From Candidatus Brocadia sapporoensis (GTDB lineage Bacteria; Planctomycetota; Brocadiia; Brocadiales; Brocadiaceae), in assembly GCF_001753675.2 (NCBI RefSeq), contig NZ_MJUW02000092.1, positions 1-32,388 of the forward strand: a stretch of DNA of 32,388 nucleotides. Reading direction: 5' to 3'. The notes beneath the pieces were generated by a model, which saw nothing but the letters and a program-made list of their open reading frames with translations, did no database searches and was not told the DNA's origin. The position numbers and the translations under genes are program-made. This document shows positions 9,833 through 31,036 of this stretch, piece after piece. Numbering within the stretch: the first letter of the stretch is position 1; every line of letters begins with the position of its first letter.

Positions 9833-10939
9833 TTAATTGTTTTTTTTTCCTCTTTTTGGGTTGCGTAAAAAATCGTTTACCAAACCTTTGAAAAGATGCC
9901 CCAGGCTCTCTTTATTCAGTTTTACGGCAATCTTTGGATCTTTGGTCGTGCCTCGTATTTCTATGGGAACCGCATGTTGTTCTAAAATAAGCCCTGCAAT
10001 ATTTTCGACATCCTTTTTCATCCGCTCTTTGTGAAATTGAACCATAGCATCATACGAAATTACCCCTTCAAATTCAGCCACACCCGATGCTGTAATATTC
10101 GCCAGCGGGCCCTGTATCTCCATCTTTTGCGTGAAAATCTTACCGTCCTTGACCAGGATTACCGCCTCCAGAGAATCAAACGAATACTGCTCCGACTCGC
10201 CCAGCATTTCCAGTAGAGCGGACATAACCTTGTTGCCCTGGATGTACCCGTCTTTTATTTCAATCCTCACATTGGCAGTAAGCTCCTGATTAAGTATCTC
10301 CTTACCCATGCCATTGCCCTGCAGAGAACCGTTCAGGCTCAGCAACCCCCCGATATCACCGTCCTTTACCACAAAAACGGGAATGAGATTGACGACAGGA
10401 ATGTCCCGGGTAATATGGACTCCCTTTGCCTCAAACGTAAGGTCAAATACCGGTCTTTTCTGATGAAGATCAATCACACCCTGTACAACAGCAGGGCCTT
10501 CGTTTACCCTGCAACGGGCATCGGTAGTGATAATGCCATTTCTGAAAGAAAATGCGTTGGTAACAAGGTCTTCTACCAGCAACCGGTTTTCATAGTTCAT
10601 TTGACGGATACAAATTTTCTTTACAACAATTTCTTTCCACAGCGCAGGAAGCAATTGGAATGTACCTTGAATATCTTCAAGCTGTATCTGGGTGTCCGGC
10701 TCCTGTTCCACTCTCTGGATTGTAAGATAGGGGATATTTACCTTATTGGGCCAATGAAAAGAAACGGGTCCGATCTGTTGTACAGATTTAAAATTATCCT
10801 CTACTGCCCGGAGAACCTCGTGTTGTATAAAATCGTCAGAAACAAACGCTGGAATAATAAAGATGCCGGCTAATGGAATCCCCAGTGCCAAACTACAAAC
10901 AATAACAATCCATTTTAACGCTGCTTTTTTAGTTTGCAT
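9833..10939 (-). CDS. AsmA-like envelope protein
   Basis: A 368-residue protein with one N-terminal signal-anchor helix (about residues 8-30, ending in GIPLAGIFIIPAFV) and a large beta-rich remainder facing the periplasmic side. The pattern of repeated strands, IEIKDGYI near 230, ASGVAEFEGVISYDAMVQF near 290, and IEIRGTTKDPKIAVKL near the C-terminus resembles AsmA/DUF748-type proteins. Those belong to the wider group thought to help move lipids across the envelope. No good Shine-Dalgarno precedes the ATG at 10939. It is the first gene of a pair with cvpA. The superfamily assignment rests on pattern and layout, not on a single diagnostic residue. Confidence 0.7.
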   Translation of the reverse strand: MQTKKAALKWIVIVCSLALGIPLAGIFIIPAFVSDDFIQHEVLRAVEDNFKSVQQIGPVSFHWPNKVNIPYLTIQRVEQEPDTQIQLEDIQGTFQLLPALWKEIVVKKICIRQMNYENRLLVEDLVTNAFSFRNGIITTDARCRVNEGPAVVQGVIDLHQKRPVFDLTFEAKGVHITRDIPVVNLIPVFVVKDGDIGGLLSLNGSLQGNGMGKEILNQELTANVRIEIKDGYIQGNKVMSALLEMLGESEQYSFDSLEAVILVKDGKIFTQKMEIQGPLANITASGVAEFEGVISYDAMVQFHKERMKKDVENIAGLILEQHAVPIEIRGTTKDPKIAVKLNKESLGHLFKGLVNDFLRNPKRGKKNN

Positions 10940-11033
10940 AGAGGTATTTAATAAAAAGTAGCATACATGACAAACGACTTGCCTGCCTTACCAATAGTGC
11001 GGAGACGTGGTTGAGGCCTTGCTGCACCAGGAA

Positions 11034-11591
11034 TTATCTATTCTGATATTTTACCATTCCTTCTCTGAATAAATCATTTCCGTATATATCATTGGCTACC
11101 ACAACGGGAAAATCTTCCACCTCAAGCCGCATGATAGCCTCGGTTCCCAGGTCCTGATAAGCAATGACATCCGCCCTTTTTACTCTCTTCGCCAATAAGG
11201 CAGCGGCGCCTCCGGTTGCGGCAAAATAAACGGCCTTATACTGCTTCATTGCCTCAATGACACTGTCAGAGCGATTACCTTTCCCGATGGTAGCCTTTAA
11301 GCCCATTGCCAATAATTGAGGTGTATAGACATCCATCCGATAGCTTGTAGTTGGCCCGCATGACCCGATAGGTCTTCCTGGCTGCGCGGGACTTGGACCC
11401 ACATAATAAATGATCTGATTCTGTACATCAAAAGGTAACTTCTTACCCTGCCCGGCAAGTTCTACAAGCCGTTGATGAGCCGCATCCCTTGCCGTATAGA
11501 TAATTCCGGATATCAGAACCCTATTGCCTATCCTGAGGTTTGCAGTTGTATCGTCCATGAGAGGGGTTTTTATGTGAATGATGTTTGACAT
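11034..11591 (-). CDS. Fumarate hydratase class I, beta subunit
   Basis: The C-terminal half of an iron-sulfur hydro-lyase, encoded separately. With the alpha subunit it interconverts fumarate and malate. The conserved GSCGPTTSYRMD block is at residues 77-88, with GKG (GLKATIGKGN) and ATGGAAALLAKRV further on. The frame is open up to 11663, inside the alpha gene. I chose the ATG at 11591 because it gives 185 residues, the usual length, begins with a normal beta-subunit N-terminus (IKTPL) and has AAGG just upstream. This leaves 29 nt after the alpha stop. L-tartrate dehydratase (TtdB) is a close paralogue. Fumarase is more likely given the 2-oxoacid oxidoreductase neighbour. Confidence 0.9.
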   Translation of the reverse strand: MSNIIHIKTPLMDDTTANLRIGNRVLISGIIYTARDAAHQRLVELAGQGKKLPFDVQNQIIYYVGPSPAQPGRPIGSCGPTTSYRMDVYTPQLLAMGLKATIGKGNRSDSVIEAMKQYKAVYFAATGGAAALLAKRVKRADVIAYQDLGTEAIMRLEVEDFPVVVANDIYGNDLFREGMVKYQNR

Positions 11592-11620
11592 AACCTTGGA
11601 TAGCCACATGGTCAAAAAGT

Positions 11621-12478
11621 TTAGATACCCAATACCACCGTTTTCACACGGTGTGCATGGCACTCAATATTAACGGCTACCGGAAGGCTGGCAATGTGAC
11701 AGGGAGACCATTCCACACGAACTCCAAGGGCGGTTACACTGCCACCTAAACCCTGGGCTCCAATGCCCAAATTGTTTACCCTTTCCAGCATCTCCTTTTC
11801 CAGACAATCAGTATCAGGGTCGCTGTGTCCTACTCCCAAAGGCCTCAAGAGTGACTTTTTAGCCAGGTGGGCAGCATAATCAAAAGTGCCGCCGATCCCA
11901 ACACCCACAATAATGGGCGGACAGGGATTGGCCTTTGCTATTCGCACGGTCTCTACAACAAAGTTTATAACCCCCTCCCTGCCATCAGCCGGAGTCAGCA
12001 TGGCAATCCGGCTCATGTTTTCACAGCCTCCACCCTTTGCCATGAACGTAATTCTTACAGAATTTCCGGGAATAAGTTCTGTGTGGATAATAGCAGGGGT
12101 GTTATCACCGGTATTGACACGTTTGAGCGGATTTGCAACCATCGATTTTCTCAAATAACCTTCTTTATAACCCTGGCGTACCCCATTATGAATCGCATCG
12201 TACAGACGGCCGCCAGTAATCTCTACGTCCTCGCCCAACTCAACAAATACGACGGCAACCCCCGTATCCTGGCAGATAGGCATCTGGCATTCACGTGCAA
12301 TTTTTGCGTTCTCCAGTAAATCTGCAAATACTTCCTTTGCTACGGAGGACGCTTCAGCTTCGCGGGAGTTTTTCAATGCATCAAGAACATCATCACTTAC
12401 CTGAAAATTGGCGCCCATGCACAGATGAGATATCTTTTCAACGATTTCCTCTGCACTAATCTTTGTACGTGTACCCAT
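11621..12478 (-). CDS. Fumarate hydratase class I, alpha subunit
   Basis: A 285-residue subunit that carries the [4Fe-4S] cluster. The likely cluster ligands are Cys69 (in ICQDTG), Cys186 (in ANPCPP) and Cys273 (in IECHAHR). Their spacings of 117 and 87 residues agree with TtdA-like proteins. Other conserved blocks are MAKGGGCENMSR and GVGIGGTFDYAAHLAKKSLL. The start at 12478 overlaps the end of the KorC-like gene by 23 nt, and the beta gene follows 29 nt after the stop, so the three are one operon. Such clusters are oxygen-sensitive, which fits an anaerobe. A tartrate dehydratase role is the main alternative. Confidence 0.92.
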   Translation of the reverse strand: MGTRTKISAEEIVEKISHLCMGANFQVSDDVLDALKNSREAEASSVAKEVFADLLENAKIARECQMPICQDTGVAVVFVELGEDVEITGGRLYDAIHNGVRQGYKEGYLRKSMVANPLKRVNTGDNTPAIIHTELIPGNSVRITFMAKGGGCENMSRIAMLTPADGREGVINFVVETVRIAKANPCPPIIVGVGIGGTFDYAAHLAKKSLLRPLGVGHSDPDTDCLEKEMLERVNNLGIGAQGLGGSVTALGVRVEWSPCHIASLPVAVNIECHAHRVKTVVLGI

Positions 12479-20915: not shown

Positions 20916-21297
20916 GACGACATTCCGCCCTTATCTTAAAAAAATAGAATGAATTGTTTGAATAAAACGAAGTAATTATGTAATGCCAGAGAAATACCTC
21001 GTCGAATCTGATACGACTTTCTCCCGCTTTTATAGCAGGCACTGCTTATAGAATTTTTTATTTTATCAGTAATGCGAAGCTATTCAAGAAAATTTGTTTC
21101 AGGGATGTTGCCATTTTGAAATGTTAATAGTTATTACTATTTTAAATTGGTAACATCAAAACCTGTTATTTTATTGAAACTAAGACAAAATAAATATATA
21201 TTTAAATATTGTTTCTGTGATTCGTATTTTTCCTGAAATATCTCTGTTTTTTGCCATTATCCTTCTATCTTATGAAAACTTTTATTCCATTGGTGAT
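20916..21297. other. AT-rich divergent intergenic region with hairpin and promoter
   Basis: Separates yjbQ (minus) from the Rieske gene (plus). TATAGCA (21031-21037) and TGCTTATA (21043-21050) form a short imperfect hairpin, followed on the plus strand by six T's. It looks like a terminator but has no plus-strand gene in front of it, so it could be a structure in a longer leader or chance. A promoter candidate lies at 21174-21202. An upstream GTG at 21217 would extend the Rieske protein, which I consider unlikely. Confidence 0.45.
21174..21202 (+). promoter_or_regulatory. Likely promoter of the Rieske/cytochrome b operon
   Basis: TTGAAA at 21174-21179 (4 of 6) is followed after 17 nt by TATATT at 21197-21202 (5 of 6). 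The transcript would begin near 21209, with a leader of about 90 nt before the preferred ATG at 21298. The very AT-rich surroundings lower the certainty. Confidence 0.45.
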
Positions 21298-21804
21298 ATG
21301 TTAGAAGCAACAAAAAATCTGGAAACGCCGTTAAATCGCCGAAGATTTTTGTACTTTACGGGTTGGGGGTGTATTGGGATATTTCTCATGACTCTATTTG
21401 GCGGAGTTATGAGATTCTTCTTTCCCAGAACCATCGTTGAACCGCCAACGAGATATAAGATTGGATATCCCTCCCAATATACGTTAGGGGTGAGTGAAAG
21501 GTTTAAAAAGCAGTTCCGGATATGGATCGTCAGGGAGGCTGATAGATTATACGTAATCGAAGCGAAATGCACCCATCTGGGTTGTACCCCAAACTGGCTG
21601 GCGGCTGAAGGTAAATTCAAATGCCCATGTCATGGCAGCGGGTTCACGCCCGATGGGATAAATATTGAAGGCCCTGCTCCGAGGCCTATGGAAAGATTTA
21701 AGGTTATGCTGGAAACGGACGGCCAAATCATTGTTGATGCGGGGGTACGATTCAGGGGTGAACGTGGAGAATGGGATAAGCCAGGCGCTTTTTTAAAGGT
21801 ATAA
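21298..21804 (+). CDS. Rieske iron-sulfur protein
   Basis: The electron-transferring [2Fe-2S] subunit of a bc1/b6f-type quinol-oxidising complex. Cluster ligands are in CTHLGC and CPCHGSGF; Cys/His pairs and the bridging Cys positions are all present. The N-terminus carries NRRRFLYF, a twin-arginine-like signal, directly followed by one membrane helix ([17 protein letters not shown]) that anchors the protein. I chose the ATG at 21298 (168 residues). The GTG at 21217 would add a second hydrophobic stretch in front of the Tat-like motif. The start is not backed by a strong ribosome site. The cytochrome b gene follows after 2 nt. Confidence 0.93.
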
Positions 21805-21806
21805 TA

Positions 21807-22634
21807 ATGGATAATAAACCTACGGAAAATTTCTTGTCAAAATACAAAAACATGCTGAAAGAGAAGGGATTGTTCGGCACACTGAGAGACGTAACGGTTA
21901 ACTCGCAGGTCTGGAAATCTATCTTCAGACACACCTTTGCCGATACGCCTAAGAATCGTATGCTAAAGATTGTGTCGAACGTCTTTATGCATCTGCATCC
22001 AGCCAAGGTAAAAAGGCATGCTCCGCAATTAAAATTTACCTGGTGTATGGGCGGTATCAGTTTCTTCCTGTTTCTGGTGCTTACGTTTACCGGTGTGTTA
22101 TTGATGTTTTATTACCGTCCTACGGTGCATGATGCGTACTGGGATATAAAAGACCTGGAATATCAGGTGCCTTTCGGTGCAATACTGCGAAATCTGCACC
22201 GGTGGAGCGCCCACCTGATGGTTATCACGGTATGGTTCCATATGTTTCGCGTATTTGCAACGGGTTCGTACAAACCGCCCAGGGAATTCAACTGGTGTGT
22301 GGGCGTTGTCCTGCTGGTGCTTACTCTTCTTCTCAGCTTTACCGGTTACCTGCTTACATGGGATCAATTGGGATTCTGGGCAGTAACGGTTGGCACGAAT
22401 ATGGCACGCTCAACGCCCTTGCTGGGACACGAGGGGCCTTTTGGGGAACAACTGGGAATGACCGCACATAATGACATACGTTTCGCCCTTCTGGGCGGTT
22501 CGCTGGTGGGAGGAAATGCCCTGTTAAGGGCATACGTATGGCATTGTATCGGGCTGCCTCTTATTATTAGTATCTTTATGATGGTGCACTTCTGGAGGGT
22601 TCGCAAGGACGGAGGTATTTCCGGACCACTCTAG
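21807..22634 (+). CDS. Cytochrome b6-like subunit with haem c-i cysteine
   Basis: The four-helix N-terminal half of cytochrome b, 275 residues, closer to b6 than to full-length bc1 cytochrome b. Haem b ligands are His131/His145 (RNLHRWSAH ... WFHMFR, spacing 14) and His246/His261 (YVWHCIG ... VHFWRVRK, spacing 15). Cys80 in [10 protein letters not shown] sits at the position of b6 Cys35, which binds the extra covalent haem c-i/c-n, and is followed by the matching FYYRPTV. The C-terminus ends in GGISGPL, like b6. The first about 70 residues form a longer, charged N-terminal extension. The Rieske stop lies 2 nt upstream, with AAGG 7 nt before the ATG. Confidence 0.94.
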
Positions 22635-22890: not shown

Positions 22891-24597
22891 ATGAACTATA
22901 CAATAGTCAAAGCCGACGACCACTGGTTCAGAGAAAATGTCAATTGCCAGTATGCATGTCCTGTCAATACGCCGGCCATGAATTATATCGAGCGCATCGT
23001 TTATGGAGACTTTGATGCCTCTCTGCGCCTCAATTTCATGGCAAATCTTTTCCCTCATATCCTCGGCAGGACCTGTACTCATCCCTGTGAAACAGCATGC
23101 CGCCGTGGAGCGATTGACAAACCCGTCTCCATATGCGCACTGAAAAGGAGCGCGGCAGACTTTTCAGCTAAAAAATTCCCTCCAAAATCAATGCATATCG
23201 AAAAGACAGGAAAGCGCATTGCAATAATAGGTTCCGGGCCATCCGGTCTTGCCGCCGCACATGATTTGGCAATAAAAGGTCATGATGTTGTTATCTATGA
23301 GTCCCTTCCGGTTGCCGGTGGCATGTTAACTGTGGGTATTCCGCCGTACCGGTTGCCACGTGATAAGATAGAAGACGCTGTAAACTGGATAAAGGAACTC
23401 GGAGTAGATATCCGCTTAAACAGCCCTATAGACACCCACGATAAGTTTGACATTTTACTAAAGGAATACAATGCAGTTTATATCGCCACAGGCGCGCATA
23501 AATCACAGATGCTTGAAATTCCCGGTGAAGACCTTGAAGGGGTAATGCATGGCGTAACCTTCATGAAGGATACAAATCTTGGGATACGAAAAGCCGTCCC
23601 CGAAAGGGTAGCCGTCATTGGGGGGGGCTTTACTGCCATAGATTGTGCGCGTTCTTCCCTCCGGCTTGGCGCAAAAGATATTTCCATCATTTACCGGAGG
23701 ACGTTGCAGGAGATGCCCGCCGGTGAATTGGAAGTACATATGGCACGGGAGGAAGGTGTAAAGATGCACTATCTGACTTCTCCGGTAAAAATTATAGGCG
23801 GACATGATCGAAAGATGACACACATCGAGTGCATAAAAAACGAACTGGGCGAACCGGACGACAAGGGACGCCGCCGCCCGGTCCCGGTAACAGGAAGCAA
23901 TTTCACCATCCCTGTCGATATGGTAATTGCGGCTATCGGCCAATCACCGGAGGTTGGTTTTTTGACAGAAAGGTTTGGGATAGAGATCAATCGATGGGGG
24001 ATGCCCGTCATTGATTCTGAAAATTTTATGACTGCACGAAAAGGCGTATTTGCGGGTGGCGATTGTATAACCGGCCCGAGGAATATTATTGAGGTAGTGG
24101 CGGACGGCAGAAAGGCTGCAAGGTCGATACACGCATTTTTAACAGGTGCAGAACGGAAAGGATACAAGTTTTACTATAGAGATCAATCCCCTTCAGACAG
24201 AATGCCCAATTATGAATCGGCGCCCAGACAGAGCCAGGACTCCCTCCCCATGAAAGAGCGATGTGACCTGACTGCGGAGGCCGAACAGGGGCTCTCACAG
24301 GAGAACACATTCAAGGAGGCGGGACGCTGTCTGCTCTGTCATTATAATATATTCATTGACGAAACGTGTATACTTTGCGGCGGCTGTATTGACGTTTGTC
24401 CCTATGATTGTATCTCCATGGTCTCCCGTGAAAACGTAGCGGCTACAGAGGCCTTACAGGACGAGAGGGTTGTTCCTGGCGACTGGAGCGCCGCTATGGT
24501 AATCGACGAGGAAAAATGCATCCGCTGTGGACTGTGCGTCAAACGTTGCCCGGTGAACGCCATCACGATGAAACGCTTTGCGTATTCGGAGGAATAA
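22891..24597 (+). CDS. GltD-like NAD(P) oxidoreductase with C-terminal 2[4Fe-4S] ferredoxin
   Basis: A 568-residue flavoprotein related to the small subunit of glutamate synthase. The N-terminal Fe-S region has Cys19, Cys23, Cys62, Cys66, Cys70 and Cys82. The FAD site is IAIIGSGPSGLAAAHDL (110-126), and the NAD(P)H site is VAVIGGGFTAIDCARSSLR (240-258). The C-terminus has two [4Fe-4S] motifs: Cys493/496/499/503 and Cys543/546/549/553. No glutamate synthase large subunit is nearby; it sits between cytochrome b genes. In anammox Rieske/cyt b clusters such a subunit has been proposed to exchange electrons with NAD(P)H or ferredoxin on the cytoplasmic side. That function is inference here. The CLLCH near the C-terminus belongs to the GltD pattern and is not a haem site. 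Confidence 0.92.
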   Translation: MNYTIVKADDHWFRENVNCQYACPVNTPAMNYIERIVYGDFDASLRLNFMANLFPHILGRTCTHPCETACRRGAIDKPVSICALKRSAADFSAKKFPPKSMHIEKTGKRIAIIGSGPSGLAAAHDLAIKGHDVVIYESLPVAGGMLTVGIPPYRLPRDKIEDAVNWIKELGVDIRLNSPIDTHDKFDILLKEYNAVYIATGAHKSQMLEIPGEDLEGVMHGVTFMKDTNLGIRKAVPERVAVIGGGFTAIDCARSSLRLGAKDISIIYRRTLQEMPAGELEVHMAREEGVKMHYLTSPVKIIGGHDRKMTHIECIKNELGEPDDKGRRRPVPVTGSNFTIPVDMVIAAIGQSPEVGFLTERFGIEINRWGMPVIDSENFMTARKGVFAGGDCITGPRNIIEVVADGRKAARSIHAFLTGAERKGYKFYYRDQSPSDRMPNYESAPRQSQDSLPMKERCDLTAEAEQGLSQENTFKEAGRCLLCHYNIFIDETCILCGGCIDVCPYDCISMVSRENVAATEALQDERVVPGDWSAAMVIDEEKCIRCGLCVKRCPVNAITMKRFAYSEE

Positions 24598-24636
24598 GCG
24601 CAGATAATAATCGAGGATAAACTGAATAATTAAAAT

Positions 24637-26610
24637 ATGCAGGCAAAAGAGACTAAACTCCAGGATATTATCGAAGGAACAAAGCAATATGTTATCCCTC
24701 TTTTTCGGCGGACTTATAGCTGGGAAGAAAAAGAATGGAAAATTTTATGGGAAGACCTTGTCGAACTTTGTACAGCGGAAAACCCACGATCTCACTTTAT
24801 TGGCTCAATTGTAAATATGCCAACCGTTTCTGTCCCTGAAGGCGTTGCTAAATTTTTATTGATCGATGGTCAGCAGCGATTAACTACTATATTTATCTTA
24901 CTGACTCTTCTACGCAATAAGGCAAAAGAAAAACCAAATCAGGAATTTGCCGAAGAAATTAATAATACTCTACTAGTTAACCCATACAAAAAGGGCAATG
25001 ATTATTTCAAGTTAATGCCGACGCAGGTTGACAGGGACGCATATATAAACCTCATCAATGGAAAATCAAATGGATCAGAAAATCAACTTACAAGGGCATA
25101 CACTTTTTTTGAGAAGAGACTCAGACAGACACAGTTTGAACATGAAAAGCTAAAGAAAATTATCACGAGTTATTTTTCTGTTGTTAGCATTGTACTTGAT
25201 GCAGATGATAACCCATACTTGGTTTTTGAAAGCTTGAATGCTAAAGGAATGCCCCTAACACAGGCAGACCTCATTCGCAATTATTTCTTTATGCGCATTC
25301 ATGCAGACAAACAAGATGAAGTTTACAATAACTATTGGCAGCCAATGCAAACAGCGTTAAATGATAGACTGACCGAATATATTAGACATTTCTTAATGAA
25401 AGATGACGGCAGCATCATAAAACAATCCGATGTTTACTTTGCGCTCAAAGGAAGAGTGTCACCGGACACTGCAATCGATTATTTGAAAAAATTGCAAAAG
25501 TTTTCGATTTACTATCAGAGACTGATTTATCCGGAATTCGAACCCGAGGTGGATTTGCAGAAGCATTTCAGAAGAGTGGACAGAATAGAAGTCACTACGG
25601 CCTATCCACTTCTTTTGAACGTTTATGATAATTATGTGGAAAATAAAATAAGCAAGGCCGATTTTATTTCTATTCTGAAAACGCTTGAGAATTACCTTAT
25701 TCGCAGATTTGTTTGTAACGTACCAACAAATCAGCTTAACAAAATCTTTTCAGCAGTTTATCCACAATTAACCACAAAATATTCAGATAACCTTGCTGAA
25801 GGGGTTAAAGCAATATTACAAAGTAAGGGTTATCCAAAAGACAATGAGTTTTGCTTCCGGTTTAAAGAAGCTAAGTTTTATGGTGGTGGTGACAGGCAGA
25901 AAAAAACCAAACTCATACTCGAAAGCCTGGAAGAAAGTTTTGCCCATAAAGAGGCAATATCTTTTGATAATTTAAGTATAGAACATGTAATGCCACAAAC
26001 TTTATCAGAGTGGTGGCAAAATCATCTTGGTAACGACTGGGAAGAAACACATGCATTATTTTTGCATACCATCGGTAATTTGACTTTATCCGCTTATAAT
26101 ACAGAATTGTCAAATGACGATTTTATAGCAAAAAAACGAACATATAACGAAAGCCACTTAGAACGTAACGAATATTTCTATGCCCTTTCCGCTTGGACAA
26201 GGGCAGAGATTGAAGAAAGAGCGAAAGTATTAGCAAAACAAGCGCTGGAAATATGGAACTACTTTGGACAAGAAAAAGCTATTTCATCTAACCTGAAAGA
26301 AGTCACTGGCACCACACCAACAGAACTTAAAATTTTGGGACAGCGGTTTCCAGTTCAGACATGGCGAGATGTTTTAGAGCAAACCCTTAACACTGTTGCA
26401 GATCTGGAAACCGATAAATTTGAAATCATTGCACACAGCTTTCCTCATTACGTTGGCAAAGATAAAAATAAATTTAGAGCAAGTCGACAGCTTCAAAATG
26501 GTTATTTCGTTGAAGTAAACATGTCTGCTCAATCCATACAAAGGCGTTGTCGTCAACTGATTGAAACAATTGATCTTACTTCGGAAGATTGGAGTGTAGA
26601 AACAATATAA
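24637..26610 (+). CDS. DUF262-DUF1524 (GmrSD-like) nuclease inside the respiratory operon
   Basis: A 657-residue protein. The N-terminal DUF262 (ParB/Srx-like NTPase) domain has IPLFRRTYSWEEKEW at 20-34 and the diagnostic DGQQRLTT starting at Asp77. The DUF1524 HNH-like nuclease domain has SIEHVMPQTL with His450, then HTIGNLTLSAYN and SNDDFIAKK, so the catalytic elements look intact. A C-terminal extension of about 100 residues follows, often seen in this group. Relatives include GmrSD and BrxU, which cut modified phage DNA. It lies 39 nt after the flavoprotein gene and 2 nt before the subunit-IV gene. Sampled lines are AT-richer than the gene before it (19 and 22 G+C per 60, against 36 and 31). 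Likely a horizontally acquired defence gene. Its ribosome site is weak. Confidence 0.88.
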   Translation: MQAKETKLQDIIEGTKQYVIPLFRRTYSWEEKEWKILWEDLVELCTAENPRSHFIGSIVNMPTVSVPEGVAKFLLIDGQQRLTTIFILLTLLRNKAKEKPNQEFAEEINNTLLVNPYKKGNDYFKLMPTQVDRDAYINLINGKSNGSENQLTRAYTFFEKRLRQTQFEHEKLKKIITSYFSVVSIVLDADDNPYLVFESLNAKGMPLTQADLIRNYFFMRIHADKQDEVYNNYWQPMQTALNDRLTEYIRHFLMKDDGSIIKQSDVYFALKGRVSPDTAIDYLKKLQKFSIYYQRLIYPEFEPEVDLQKHFRRVDRIEVTTAYPLLLNVYDNYVENKISKADFISILKTLENYLIRRFVCNVPTNQLNKIFSAVYPQLTTKYSDNLAEGVKAILQSKGYPKDNEFCFRFKEAKFYGGGDRQKKTKLILESLEESFAHKEAISFDNLSIEHVMPQTLSEWWQNHLGNDWEETHALFLHTIGNLTLSAYNTELSNDDFIAKKRTYNESHLERNEYFYALSAWTRAEIEERAKVLAKQALEIWNYFGQEKAISSNLKEVTGTTPTELKILGQRFPVQTWRDVLEQTLNTVADLETDKFEIIAHSFPHYVGKDKNKFRASRQLQNGYFVEVNMSAQSIQRRCRQLIETIDLTSEDWSVETI

Positions 26611-26612
26611 TT

Positions 26613-27455
26613 ATGGAAAAGTCAAATAATGAATCAGAAAACATAAAAGATAAAGGCAGATACCGGGCGCTCACCTTTATTAAGGGACCAACCCTTGCCA
26701 AGGAAAAAGACCTAGAAATATCTAAAGATGAAATCCCCACGTGGCCGTACCTGGTAAGAAAGGAATTTCTGGCGGCGATCATCTGTACCATCATCCTCAT
26801 TGTCTGGTCGATCCTCCTCGATGCGCCGCTGGAGGAACTTTCCGATCCTACCATGACCCCGAATCCGGCAAAGGCGCCGTGGTATTTTTTAGGACTACAG
26901 GAAATGCTTGTCTATTTTGATCCCTGGATTGCCGGTGTCGTTTTTCCGGTGCTTATCATCATTGGGCTGATGGCCATACCCTTCGTGGACTTTAATCCAA
27001 AGGGGAATGGATACTACACCTTTAAGGAGCGGAAGTTTGCTATGCTCACCTTCTGCTTCGGATTCCATATCTTATGGATATTGCTGATTATCGTTGGCGT
27101 CTTTATGCGCGGGCCTGGCTGGCTCTGGTTCTGGCCCTGGCAGGAGTGGGATCTCCACAGGATTGTGGCCGAGACTAATTATGATCTGACCAATTTCATT
27201 GGTATTAATTCAAAATCTTTCCTGGGTTTTGTCCTTGGTGGCGCCGTGGTAATCGGATATTTTTTTATGGGTATGACACTTCCTTACCGTTTTATGAAGG
27301 CAAGGAAAAGTATAGCGCTGGAAAAACTCGGCATGATCAGATATGCCATGGTGTCGTTCCTCTTCTTATCTATGATGGCGCTGCCCATAAAAGTATGTCT
27401 GAGACTGGTGTTCCATGTAAAATATATATGGGTAACACCGTGGTTTAATATATAA
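26613..27455 (+). CDS. Cytochrome b C-terminal half (subunit-IV-like)
   Basis: The other half of the split cytochrome b, 280 residues, longer than chloroplast subunit IV (about 160). Helices begin near 53 (AAIICTIILIVWSILLDAP), with further ones near 108-125, 145-165, 204-222 and 242-262. NPAKAPWYFLGLQEML (84-99) stands where the Qo-site PEWY motif is expected; here it reads Ala88-Pro-Trp-Tyr91, so the usual Glu is missing. The frame is open upstream to 26589, but the ATG at 26613 is preferred because it starts just after the nuclease stop codon. No ribosome site is visible, so translation may depend on coupling to the nuclease gene. It completes the quinol-oxidising core with the Rieske and b6-like subunits. 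Confidence 0.9.
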   Translation: MEKSNNESENIKDKGRYRALTFIKGPTLAKEKDLEISKDEIPTWPYLVRKEFLAAIICTIILIVWSILLDAPLEELSDPTMTPNPAKAPWYFLGLQEMLVYFDPWIAGVVFPVLIIIGLMAIPFVDFNPKGNGYYTFKERKFAMLTFCFGFHILWILLIIVGVFMRGPGWLWFWPWQEWDLHRIVAETNYDLTNFIGINSKSFLGFVLGGAVVIGYFFMGMTLPYRFMKARKSIALEKLGMIRYAMVSFLFLSMMALPIKVCLRLVFHVKYIWVTPWFNI

Positions 27456-27715: not shown

Positions 27716-30556
27716 ATGTTGACTAGCAAAAATCCACATTCCACAAAAAAAGAAGAAGATAAATCTTACCTGAAAATTTTTGTTGCGGTTAGTTTCATCC
27801 TCGTAGGAGTCACGGTATGGGTACTCGTAAACGAGACCGTCGACAGGCGACCCTGGAAAAATTATCAGAAGCAGTTCTACCACCTTGAGTACAAAAAAAT
27901 CAAGCAGAACTACGATCAGGAGCGGACTGTTTTTGAAAGTCCGGAGGTACAAACGAAATACCGAGAAACACAGAGAAATCTGGAAAAGGCGTGGGAGGAC
28001 TTTAAAAAACCGTCGATACAAAATGAATTCAAAAAACTATCAGAAGAACAAAAATTGTTAAATGACGAGTTAGAGACCTTGAAATTTCAGGCTATAGTCG
28101 CCCGGAATGAAGGTATGGGAAAGGAATATCTCTATGGAAAGACTCAGAGCGAACAGGTTAGGCATGAGATTGTGGAATTGGAAGAAAAGGGCAAGGAGTT
28201 TACCACGAAGATAAAGGAGCGGGAAGGAAAAATTGCGCCTATAAAGACAAGATTGAAAGAACTCAGACAGGAAACGGATAAATATACGGAAGAGCTGGAG
28301 GTCTATACTGTTGGTATGAAAAGATACGGAGAGCAGTTAAAAGCCTATGAGAAGACCCGCCCCAGCCTGCAAGTCTATCAGACCTATCTGGAAGATTTAA
28401 ATATCACTGATCGCTGTATGTCGTGTCATGTGGGTATCAATAAGACGGAGAGTGTGTCTTCAGAACAACCCTACGCAAGCCATCCAGACCAGAAATTGTA
28501 TCTGGGTAATCATCCTCCTGAAAAATTTGGCTGTGTGCTTTGCCATGAGGGGCAGGCAAGCGCCACGTCTGGGGTAAAAAAGGCACACGGTGAGGTTGAA
28601 TACTGGCTTACACCCATTTATCGTGGAAAGACGGCTCAGGCATCGTGCATACGGTGTCATAGTGAAGGCAAGGAGGTAAAAGGAGGAGAGATGCTCTGGG
28701 AGGGCAAAAGACTGTTTGAAAATCTTGGCTGTCATGGATGCCATGAAACAACGGGCTTTGGTGAAGATAAAAACAGGATAATCGGTCCAAGTTTACGAAA
28801 CATACGGAACAAGGTGAAGTCCGAATGGATTACCGGTTGGATAAAGGCCCCAAAAAAATTCAGACCTACCACGTTAATGCCCGACTTCAAACTTTCGGAT
28901 GAAGAATCACAGGCCATTGCCGCATATCTCTGGCAACATGCGGATAAGAAAAAGGCTGCTGACGAGATGCCGGTTTTCAGTGATGAACAATTATCGCAAG
29001 GCGATTTCCTCTTTGAGCAGGTGGGGTGCATGGCATGCCATAGTTATAAAGAAGACGCTGAACGGGGATTCGCCCCCAATCTTGCACGGATTGGACAAAA
29101 GATAAACTATGGATACCTGATGGAGTGGATCGTGAACCCAAAAGCAAAAGAATCGCATACACGCATGCCCAGCTTCAGGTTAAATCAGGAAAAGGCAAGT
29201 CTCATTGCCGGATATTTGATACATAAGACGGGCAAGGATACACTGAAGGAAGGGGTGGCGGATAGGGATTGGCTGGAAGACAAGGAAAAATCCCGCGCCG
29301 GTGAGGTGTTGATCAAGAGATATGGTTGCTTCGGATGTCACGAGATAGAGGGCATGGAAGGGCTTGGAAAGATAGGGACAGAGCTATCCGCCATCGGGTC
29401 TAAATCGGTAACCCTCCTTGATTTTGGACTATTAGAAAAGAAGATATTGGGAGAGGCTGGGCTTAAGCATTTTACAGAAAATGTGGGAAAGGCAAGGCAG
29501 TCGTGGTTACAGGCAAAGTTGCGTGACCCCAGGCAGTTTGACGAGGGGAAGTATAAAAGACCAGAAGACCGCCTGAAAATGCCGGATTTTGCGCTAAAAG
29601 ACGAAGAGGTTGAGTCATTGGTAATAATGCTCGCCGGGCTAAGAGAAGAAAAGTTCCCTGAGAAGTATCTCGCCAGACTGGCAGAAAAAGACAACTCGGT
29701 CGTAGAAGGAAAGCGATTGATTGGAAAGTACAATTGTATTGGCTGTCATCAGTTTGATTTGGATAGATTACATCTTGCCGGAGATGTTGAAGTTGCGGGG
29801 ATGGTAAAGCTGGAAGAGGATGCGGGTGTCTATTTTCAGCTCTGGGAGGATAATGAGAAATTAGGGCATAAGGCGGGCGAAACGGTGTACATAGACAACC
29901 AGCAGATCGTGGATAGGAAAAAGGCCGCCGGAGGCGATATCACACCCGAAATCATCGAGTATCATGTTGAAAATGAGGGGCTCGTGCCGGAAGAGGCAAG
30001 GGTGTTTGCGCCTCCGTTGTTGTATAGTGAAGGTAAGAAGGTGCAGTCCGAATGGTTGTTTGAATTCTTGAAAGAGCCTTTCGATCTGAGACCATGGCTC
30101 GACATAAAGATGCCTACGTTTCGCTTGCCGGATGATGAGGCAACCAGCCTTTCAAAGTTCTTTGCTGAGGTAGAAAATGAGCCGTACCCGTATGAGTATA
30201 TTTTTGAGACAAAAAAGGAATACATAGACGCAAAAGAAGCTATGTCACCGGGTTACCTCTTAGCGGCAAAGAAACTCTTTGAATCAAAGGACGTCAACTG
30301 CATCCTATGCCATGTAAAAGGCGAAAAGATGCCAGAGGGAGATAAAACTGGTTGGGCGCCAGACCTCCTGCTTGCCAAAAGGAGGCTCAAGCCTGGTTGG
30401 ATAAAACGATGGCTCCTTGACCCACAGTCCATCCAGCCTGGCACCAAAATGCCAAAGTTCTTCAGGGAAGGCGAGTTTCAGAACTACATCCCCGGCACAC
30501 CTGCAGACCAGGCAGAGGTAATGAAAGATTATTTAATGAATCTGCAGGGGGAGTAA
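27716..30556 (+). CDS. Membrane-anchored octahaem cytochrome c with coiled coil
   Basis: A 946-residue protein with an N-terminal anchor helix (about 19-39) and a long charged coiled coil (about 50-225). Eight CxxCH haem sites have first Cys at 234, 273, 311, 339, 438, 538, 674 and 862. The last five lie in repeated class-I-like modules, each followed by a probable Met ligand: LMPDF, RMPSF, KMPDF, KMPTF and KMPKF. The first three form a separate tri-haem region. It is the last gene of the Rieske/cyt b operon and most likely accepts electrons from the Rieske protein, acting as a large cytochrome c1 equivalent that hands them to soluble cytochromes. HAO-type enzymes also have eight haems but lack this modular MP[DSTK]F pattern, so I do not call it HAO. 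Confidence 0.92.
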   Translation: MLTSKNPHSTKKEEDKSYLKIFVAVSFILVGVTVWVLVNETVDRRPWKNYQKQFYHLEYKKIKQNYDQERTVFESPEVQTKYRETQRNLEKAWEDFKKPSIQNEFKKLSEEQKLLNDELETLKFQAIVARNEGMGKEYLYGKTQSEQVRHEIVELEEKGKEFTTKIKEREGKIAPIKTRLKELRQETDKYTEELEVYTVGMKRYGEQLKAYEKTRPSLQVYQTYLEDLNITDRCMSCHVGINKTESVSSEQPYASHPDQKLYLGNHPPEKFGCVLCHEGQASATSGVKKAHGEVEYWLTPIYRGKTAQASCIRCHSEGKEVKGGEMLWEGKRLFENLGCHGCHETTGFGEDKNRIIGPSLRNIRNKVKSEWITGWIKAPKKFRPTTLMPDFKLSDEESQAIAAYLWQHADKKKAADEMPVFSDEQLSQGDFLFEQVGCMACHSYKEDAERGFAPNLARIGQKINYGYLMEWIVNPKAKESHTRMPSFRLNQEKASLIAGYLIHKTGKDTLKEGVADRDWLEDKEKSRAGEVLIKRYGCFGCHEIEGMEGLGKIGTELSAIGSKSVTLLDFGLLEKKILGEAGLKHFTENVGKARQSWLQAKLRDPRQFDEGKYKRPEDRLKMPDFALKDEEVESLVIMLAGLREEKFPEKYLARLAEKDNSVVEGKRLIGKYNCIGCHQFDLDRLHLAGDVEVAGMVKLEEDAGVYFQLWEDNEKLGHKAGETVYIDNQQIVDRKKAAGGDITPEIIEYHVENEGLVPEEARVFAPPLLYSEGKKVQSEWLFEFLKEPFDLRPWLDIKMPTFRLPDDEATSLSKFFAEVENEPYPYEYIFETKKEYIDAKEAMSPGYLLAAKKLFESKDVNCILCHVKGEKMPEGDKTGWAPDLLLAKRRLKPGWIKRWLLDPQSIQPGTKMPKFFREGEFQNYIPGTPADQAEVMKDYLMNLQGE

Positions 30557-30697: not shown

Positions 30698-31036
30698 ATG
30701 AATGTATTTGTTGAGATAAAACAATACATAATTTCATTTGACATAGGTAAAACATCATCCCACATACTTACCGTTGATATTTACAAAGATGACGGCGAGT
30801 ACCTGGACTCTTTTGCTGTCTACGCAAGTTCAGAAGATATACCAGAAATGTTTCTTAAACGATTGCCTGATCTGTCCTATCACGATATAAAGTTCTTTAC
30901 ATCCGAAGTTGAAACTCTTGTCAGAGAACCAAACAACGGGACGTCTTTTTTGGACGCAATGCAAAGATATCGGGTTAGTGATAACCGTTTGAAAGAATTA
31001 GGTCTTAAGACTCCTGACGATCCTGGTAAAAACTGA
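30698..31036 (+). CDS. Hypothetical protein, 112 residues
   Basis: A small soluble protein without signal peptide or membrane helix. A good ribosome site (GAGG, 6 nt before the ATG) and normal composition support it. The N-terminal half is strand-rich (YIISFDIGKTSSHILTVDIY, then DDGEYLDSFAVYA). The C-terminal part ends in a polar, proline-containing tail. I do not recognise a family. It lies 141 nt after the octahaem gene and 165 nt before the lipoprotein hydrolase, so membership in either transcript is open. Confidence 0.65.
   Translation: MNVFVEIKQYIISFDIGKTSSHILTVDIYKDDGEYLDSFAVYASSEDIPEMFLKRLPDLSYHDIKFFTSEVETLVREPNNGTSFLDAMQRYRVSDNRLKELGLKTPDDPGKN

Follow-up and report, generated by a model that had tools for sequence, protein, structure and literature searches.

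The analysed stretch, hereafter the window, is an entire 32,388-bp contig from the 2.93-Mb genome of Candidatus Brocadia sapporoensis (99% complete, not closed). It carries an intact GmrSD-like (DUF262-DUF1524) nuclease gene, a plus-strand ORF of 657 aa with an ATG start, which is the sole representative of its kind within this genome. As described in the original prediction, made from the DNA letters, the gene lies on the same strand inside a Rieske/cytochrome b operon, between the flavoprotein and subunit-IV genes. The operon comprises the following features:

21217..21804 (+): Rieske iron-sulfur protein gene (Pfam Rieske, 5e-9; start uncertain, homology from about 21290)
21807..22634 (+): b6-type cytochrome b gene (Pfam Cytochrome_B, 3.6e-42; NCBIfam ExtP-like)
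22891..24597 (+): gene for an NAD(P)/FAD flavoprotein carrying 4Fe-4S domains, bordering the slot on the left (Pfam Pyr_redox_2, Fer4_20)
24598..24636 (+): spacer, 39 bp
24637..26610 (+): GmrSD-like nuclease gene, 657 aa, intact (Pfam, PADLOC, motifs, fold)
24661..25290 (+): DUF262/GmrSD_N domain (ParB/Srx-like NTPase), residues 9-218 (Pfam)
24865..24879 (+): DGQQR motif, residues 77-81 (sequence, alignment)
25831..26238 (+): DUF1524/GmrSD_C HNH-type nuclease domain, residues 399-534 (Pfam)
25981..25986 (+): E449-H450 of the E/D-H-N-N nuclease motif (sequence, alignment)
26272..26607 (+): C-terminal extension, residues 546-657 (outside any Pfam family; kept in close relatives)
26613..27455 (+): gene for a subunit-IV-like membrane protein, bordering the slot on the right (Pfam Cytochrom_B_C, 9e-6; NCBIfam ExtQ, cytb6_f_IV)
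27716..30556 (+): multihaem cytochrome c gene, 946 aa (Pfam)

The nuclease gene follows the flavoprotein gene after 39 bp, and its stop codon precedes the subunit-IV gene by 2 bp. The start of the latter was placed by homology at ATG 26613; the TTG at 26589 given in the ORF list would overlap the nuclease gene. Clear orthologs of the flavoprotein (at least 60% identity) are present in 36 of the 62 genomes of the order. The low G+C previously noticed in the nuclease gene relative to the flavoprotein gene was borne out: its GC content is 0.367 (GC3 0.326), versus 0.45-0.49 (GC3 0.46-0.55) in the Rieske, cytochrome b, flavoprotein, subunit-IV and cytochrome c genes. Beyond the cytochrome c gene lies a 112-aa ORF (30698-31036, plus strand) with a GC content of 0.37 and no Pfam match.

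The gene order and domains of the operon agree with those of the Kuenenia Kuste4569-4574 Rieske/cytochrome b complex, the most highly expressed of three such complexes in that organism, for which NAD(P)H production has been proposed (PMC12954380). The operon had been predicted to be highly expressed, a level documented for the Kuenenia ortholog only. The gap between the flavoprotein and subunit-IV genes measures 6 bp in G026-G028, three genomes from a neighbouring genus, and in G035 the two genes overlap; thus, this compact arrangement is probably the ancestral state. In the complete genome of Ca. Brocadia pituitae (G015), the multihaem cytochrome c gene (L191, G015:C1:545398-548217, plus strand) is situated about 14 kb from subunit IV (C1:561959-562798, minus strand) on the opposite strand, and a purL-like gene succeeds subunit IV. 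This arrangement indicates that the operon of B. pituitae was broken by rearrangement.

The nuclease protein contains both GmrSD domains in one chain, each above its curated Pfam cut-off: GmrSD_N (PF03235; E=1.5e-34, 120.3 bits vs a cut-off of 33.2) and GmrSD_C (PF07510; E=9e-29, 100.5 bits vs 23). The motifs that define GmrSD proteins, namely IDGQQR, EHxxPQ, GNLTL..YN, NxxFxxKK and a fourth W..I..R..L..W motif (PMC4619093), were all recognized. The (I/V)DGQQR motif is found within LIDGQQRLTTIFIL (residues 75-88), and the E/D-H-N-N site and the fourth motif, WxxxxIxxRxxxL..W, are represented by IEHVMPQ, IGNLTLSAYN, NDDFIAKK and WTRAEIEERAKVLAKQALEIW. The DUF1524 motifs (IEHVMPQ, GNLTL..YN, NDDFxxKK and WxxxxIxxRxxxLxxxxxxIW) are intact and vary little or not at all among relatives; DGQQR, EH, N481, N488, W520 and R528 are invariant over 26 relatives. 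Pfam and the alignments thus confirm the full-length DUF262-DUF1524 gene with intact DGQQR and HNH-like motifs that had been predicted. PADLOC matched the protein to Orf5 (3e-210), HEC-06 (3e-81) and mREase_IV (2e-34), and no NCBIfam model matched it.

An AlphaFold2 model built from 26 sequences (pLDDT 81, pTM 0.68) showed its best PDB match with DndI (9jfl; Foldseek 9.6e-19, Z 22), followed by SspE (Z 18-19) and BrxU (Z 12). These similarities span 420-530 residues, with unrelated entries scoring below Z 6, and a profile search retrieved the same relatives (DndI, E=2.5e-59; SspE, E=1.6e-34). The C-terminal residues 546-657 are poorly modelled, yet conserved among close relatives. The protein is a further member of the already known GmrSD-like kind. 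By analogy with its solved relatives, a solitary modification-dependent nuclease is our best guess for its function: a stand-alone enzyme that combines an NTPase domain (DUF262, ParB/Srx fold) with an HNH nuclease domain (DUF1524) and would bind NTP at DGQQR and check the chemical state of incoming DNA. The E-H-N-N HNH site may then nick or cut DNA carrying (or lacking) a modification, which would protect the cell from phage or other mobile DNA.

Among the 62 genomes of the order, the nuclease occupies the flavoprotein/subunit-IV site in the window genome (G000), in B. pituitae and in Brocadia sp. WS118 (G017), that is, in 3 of the 11 genomes of the genus; it is missing in the other 8, and no anammox genome read outside the genus carries it there. 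The gene is therefore not a resident of this site in most anammox genomes. The same gene order in the complete B. pituitae genome (AP021856) and in the independent WS118 assembly also shows that the junctions are real, and an assembly artefact was rejected. The B. pituitae copy carries one frameshift (a single base lost just 3' of the DGQQR codons) and the WS118 copy an in-frame internal deletion of about 140 codons (about residues 215-353). The function of the nuclease is thus dispensable, since two of the three Brocadia copies are broken.

Relatives of the nuclease were found in Ca. Magnetominusculus xianensis (Nitrospirota, 72%), a deltaproteobacterial MAG (78%), G060 from another anammox family (64%) and a viral contig (64%); catalogued plasmids and phages contained no homologue above 38%. 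On the viral contig, a type IIG restriction-modification gene lies directly downstream of the nuclease gene and a RadC-like gene is also present, company that is typical of a mobile defence gene. The G060 homologue is located near IS91-type transposase, integrase and methylase genes, and the deltaproteobacterial one is neighboured by FRG and Uma2-like genes. No conserved partner gene was detected among the neighbourhoods in the deltaproteobacterial MAG, G060, the viral contig and Magnetominusculus. The Magnetominusculus homologue resides on a 3.4-kb contig (L099) whose two ends overlap and encode a class II ribonucleotide reductase-like tail, which suggests that this assembly is circular or repeat-bounded around the nuclease. 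The deltaproteobacterial homologue (L101:1606-3249) bears an in-frame internal deletion (about residues 126-233) adjoining the stretch deleted in WS118; these are two separate mid-protein losses, and the catalytic motifs of both domains stay in frame in each.

To place the insertion site in context, the four internal junctions of the operon were measured in every readable Brocadiaceae assembly. Gaps of at least 0.9 kb between the flavoprotein and subunit-IV genes were observed in 9 of 25 assemblies (those of G024 and G043 reach a contig end), whereas all 70 gaps at the remaining three junctions stayed below that length, with a maximum of 481 bp (Fisher p=1.7e-6, an optimistic value because it ignores the kinship of the genomes). 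Unrelated cargo in different lineages accompanies this contrast between junctions of the same operon, as in an insertion hotspot. The slot contains the following cargo:

nuclease: slots of G000, G015 and G017
PIN toxin with a small partner: slots of G015 and G025; fragment in G017
HicB-like protein: slot of G019; fragments in G025 and G040
DUF4258 and DUF2283 proteins: slot of G040
DUF433 protein and HTH/MqsA-like protein: slot of G024
TPR protein: slot of G014; fragment in G019
DJ-1/PfpI protein: slot of G043

The HicB and PIN-partner assignments were made by the analyst from sequence, Pfam giving no match, and part of the cargo (TPR, DJ-1) is not defence-like. All recognisable cargo is on the operon strand (sign test p=0.004, with nine cargo lineages assumed independent). 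As a control, six junctions elsewhere in the window were surveyed in up to ten Brocadia genomes. Five of them lacked any gap above 0.25 kb; the sixth, a3-a4, between the genes at 11034 and 9833, showed gaps of 1.3-1.4 kb in 2 of 8 genomes and of 0.65 kb in a third. The latter region (window 9833-11663, minus-strand genes) constitutes a second insertion-prone junction, with gaps in L195 (G016) and L200 (G021). The slot is thus exceptional inside its operon and not unique in the genome, and this core energy operon seems to harbour a site where accessory genes, some of them related to defence, turn over.

Exchange of cargo could be followed for the PIN toxin and its partner. Between B. pituitae and G025, which belongs to a different genus, the silent divergence of this pair is 0.26, compared with 0.54-0.70 in the flanking operon genes (p<=6e-7); the pair therefore entered the slot after the genera split in at least one lineage. 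The high identity ends at the slot edges, with no recombination footprint in the flanks, so homologous recombination through long flanks is unsupported as the means of this exchange. Furthermore, G014, the sister of WS118, carries a TPR gene in a slot that terminates in a 25-bp remnant of a PIN gene, indicating cargo replacement. In G043 (L085), two 88-bp repeats, 95% identical and with an internal palindrome, enclose the DJ-1/PfpI cargo; counted from the flavoprotein stop, they lie at 34-121 and 1000-1087. The slot of the related G042 (L071) is nearly empty and contains a single copy of this repeat at 50-117. The slots of G014, G017, G019, G030 and G031 likewise hold repeats of 50-80 bp that are self-complementary. 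Recombination between palindromic repeats is a possible route into and out of the slot; the window's own slot is devoid of such repeats, and no convincing pair of target-site duplications or terminal repeats flanks its insert.

The account that we favour, and hold to be reasonably probable, is that the gene encodes a stand-alone, putatively modification-sensing defence nuclease, is housed in an accessory-gene slot and probably owes its expression to read-through. This account builds on the gene, its motifs and fold match, the shared site, purifying selection and the slot statistics. The nuclease gene would have been acquired by horizontal transfer into a Brocadia ancestor, taken its place in the main Rieske/cytochrome b operon, between the genes for the flavoprotein and subunit IV, and been inherited at this site with losses, in a gap that serves the Brocadiaceae as an accessory-gene slot with cargo turnover. 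The cargo keeps the direction of the operon and is probably transcribed by read-through. The 39-bp and 2-bp spacings, the common strand and the lack of a plus-strand terminator-like site in the 39-bp spacer fit such read-through; promoter and terminator scans performed at chance level and are no proof of it.

The three Brocadia copies grouped together in trees of protein, codons, and first plus second codon positions (UFBoot 93-96), and some rival topologies survived the tests. This grouping bears on the possibility that two related copies entered the same slot independently, one in the window lineage and one in the lineage of B. pituitae and WS118, which we regard as unlikely. The slot demonstrably took the same cargo repeatedly, as with the PIN-antitoxin pair in G015 and G025; the spacer at 24598..24636 is shared with the B. 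pituitae and WS118 slots over no more than the 17 bp preceding the ATG, the sequences farther upstream being unrelated; and the B. pituitae protein resembles the deltaproteobacterial copy (83%) no less than the window copy (82%). The union of the Brocadia copies in the trees argues for a single entry. An alternative grouping of the B. pituitae and WS118 copies with the two foreign ones was excluded by the AU test on full codons (p=0.026), and was retained on protein (p=0.078) and on first plus second positions (p=0.067). The base of Brocadia is poorly resolved in the operon tree (supports 32-59). Where the slot is empty in other Brocadia, blastn and tblastn turned up no remnants of the nuclease; hence losses, if any, were clean.

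Given that its nearest solved structures are those of DndI and SspE, with BrxU further off, the nuclease might instead be the effector of a phosphorothioation (Ssp/Dnd) system rather than a solitary modification-dependent enzyme. We consider this improbable. No DndC (TIGR03183) match was found in the window genome (99% complete, not closed) or in B. pituitae, although DndC does occur in other genomes of the genus (G016 and G017), and the only PAPS-reductase match of the window genome is one locus split by stops. Moreover, the phosphorothioate-sensing Tyr25 of DndI (PMC11662687), equivalent to Y30 of SspE, aligns with Phe23 of the nuclease, a conservative change.

The original prediction held that a defence gene had been captured by the operon. 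A horizontally spread, low-GC gene inserted in-strand agrees with capture as such, and the low GC and the absence from 8 of 11 genomes of the genus would also suit a recent event in this one lineage. Recent capture is nevertheless very improbable. The same site is occupied in three species, the copies are monophyletic and the slots of B. pituitae and WS118 are likewise low in GC (0.36-0.37). Between the window and B. pituitae, the silent divergence of the nuclease gene (0.56 per site) is near that of the subunit-IV (0.50), flavoprotein (0.64) and cytochrome b (0.65) genes, and its dN/dS of 0.094 is within or near the range of the operon genes. From this neighbour-like silent divergence and low dN/dS, the nuclease gene is read as an old resident that purifying selection has maintained through most of its past and that, judging from the sequences, is now decaying in two lineages. 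Codon adaptation, which had been proposed as a further indicator, gave no signal (relative CAI 0.816, inside the range of other genes). The notion that the nuclease was recruited to the respiratory complex, or is regulated by the respiratory state as had been suggested, draws on operon position and co-orientation only and is extremely improbable, as the gene is absent or broken in most relatives with an intact operon, including the two sister-species copies, and the slot contents are unrelated to one another.

The usual picture places defence hotspots at tRNA genes, within islands or between operons. In the present case the recurrent landing place lies within the operon for a key bioenergetic complex, at a junction whose gap is 6 bp in some empty-site relatives. 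Such a slot, located in a core energy operon and demonstrably exchanging cargo between genera, represents a new form of the known insertion hotspots, and one whose other occupants, including toxin-antitoxin-like genes, the reading of a single genome had missed. Read-through from the operon, if it occurs, would give immunity genes steady expression without regulation of their own and would make it possible to measure what each insertion costs the complex. More speculatively, and with rather little probability in our view, defence and toxin-antitoxin genes may be swapped between species and genera in a permissive slot of the respiratory operon, always in its direction; accessory immunity would then be expressed from a transcript among the most essential of the cell, whose loss or damage, for example by a phage, could alter toxin/antitoxin or nuclease levels. 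Our literature search on the phage defences of uncultured anammox bacteria found little, and the slot provides a defined, comparable locus for tracking defence-gene turnover in these organisms.

Among known systems, the GmrSD type IV enzymes (Eco94GmrSD, GmrS/GmrD; PMC4619093) are likewise single-chain DUF262-DUF1524 proteins, share the IDGQQRLTT, EHxxPQ, GNLTL..YN, NxxFxxKK and W..I..R motifs, and are encoded by solitary, horizontally spread genes. Unlike them, the window nuclease has about 110 additional aa at its C-terminus and is encoded inside an energy operon rather than a defence island. DndI (PDB 9jfl) and SspE (PDB 6jiv, 7drs), phosphorothioation-sensing HNH nucleases, are the nearest solved structures by both profile and fold; they act with phosphorothioate-modification genes, whereas the window genome lacks a DndC match and the nuclease has Phe in place of their sensing Tyr. 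The structural match to them stops at residue 546, leaving the C-terminal extension without a matched counterpart. BrxU (PDB 7p9k), a type IV enzyme of the GmrSD family whose domains follow the same order, is more distant (Z 12) and its gene resides in a BREX island. The PADLOC families Orf5 (PDLC02693) and HEC-06, which gave the top profile scores and cover both domains, are candidate defence families; the window gene is instead embedded in a metabolic operon. That operon is orthologous to Kuste4569-4574 of Kuenenia (PMC12954380), which encodes the Rieske protein, b6-type cytochrome b, NAD(P) oxidoreductase, subunit IV and multihaem cytochrome c; where the flavoprotein/subunit-IV gap narrows to 6 bp in empty-site relatives, that of the window holds 2 kb of cargo.
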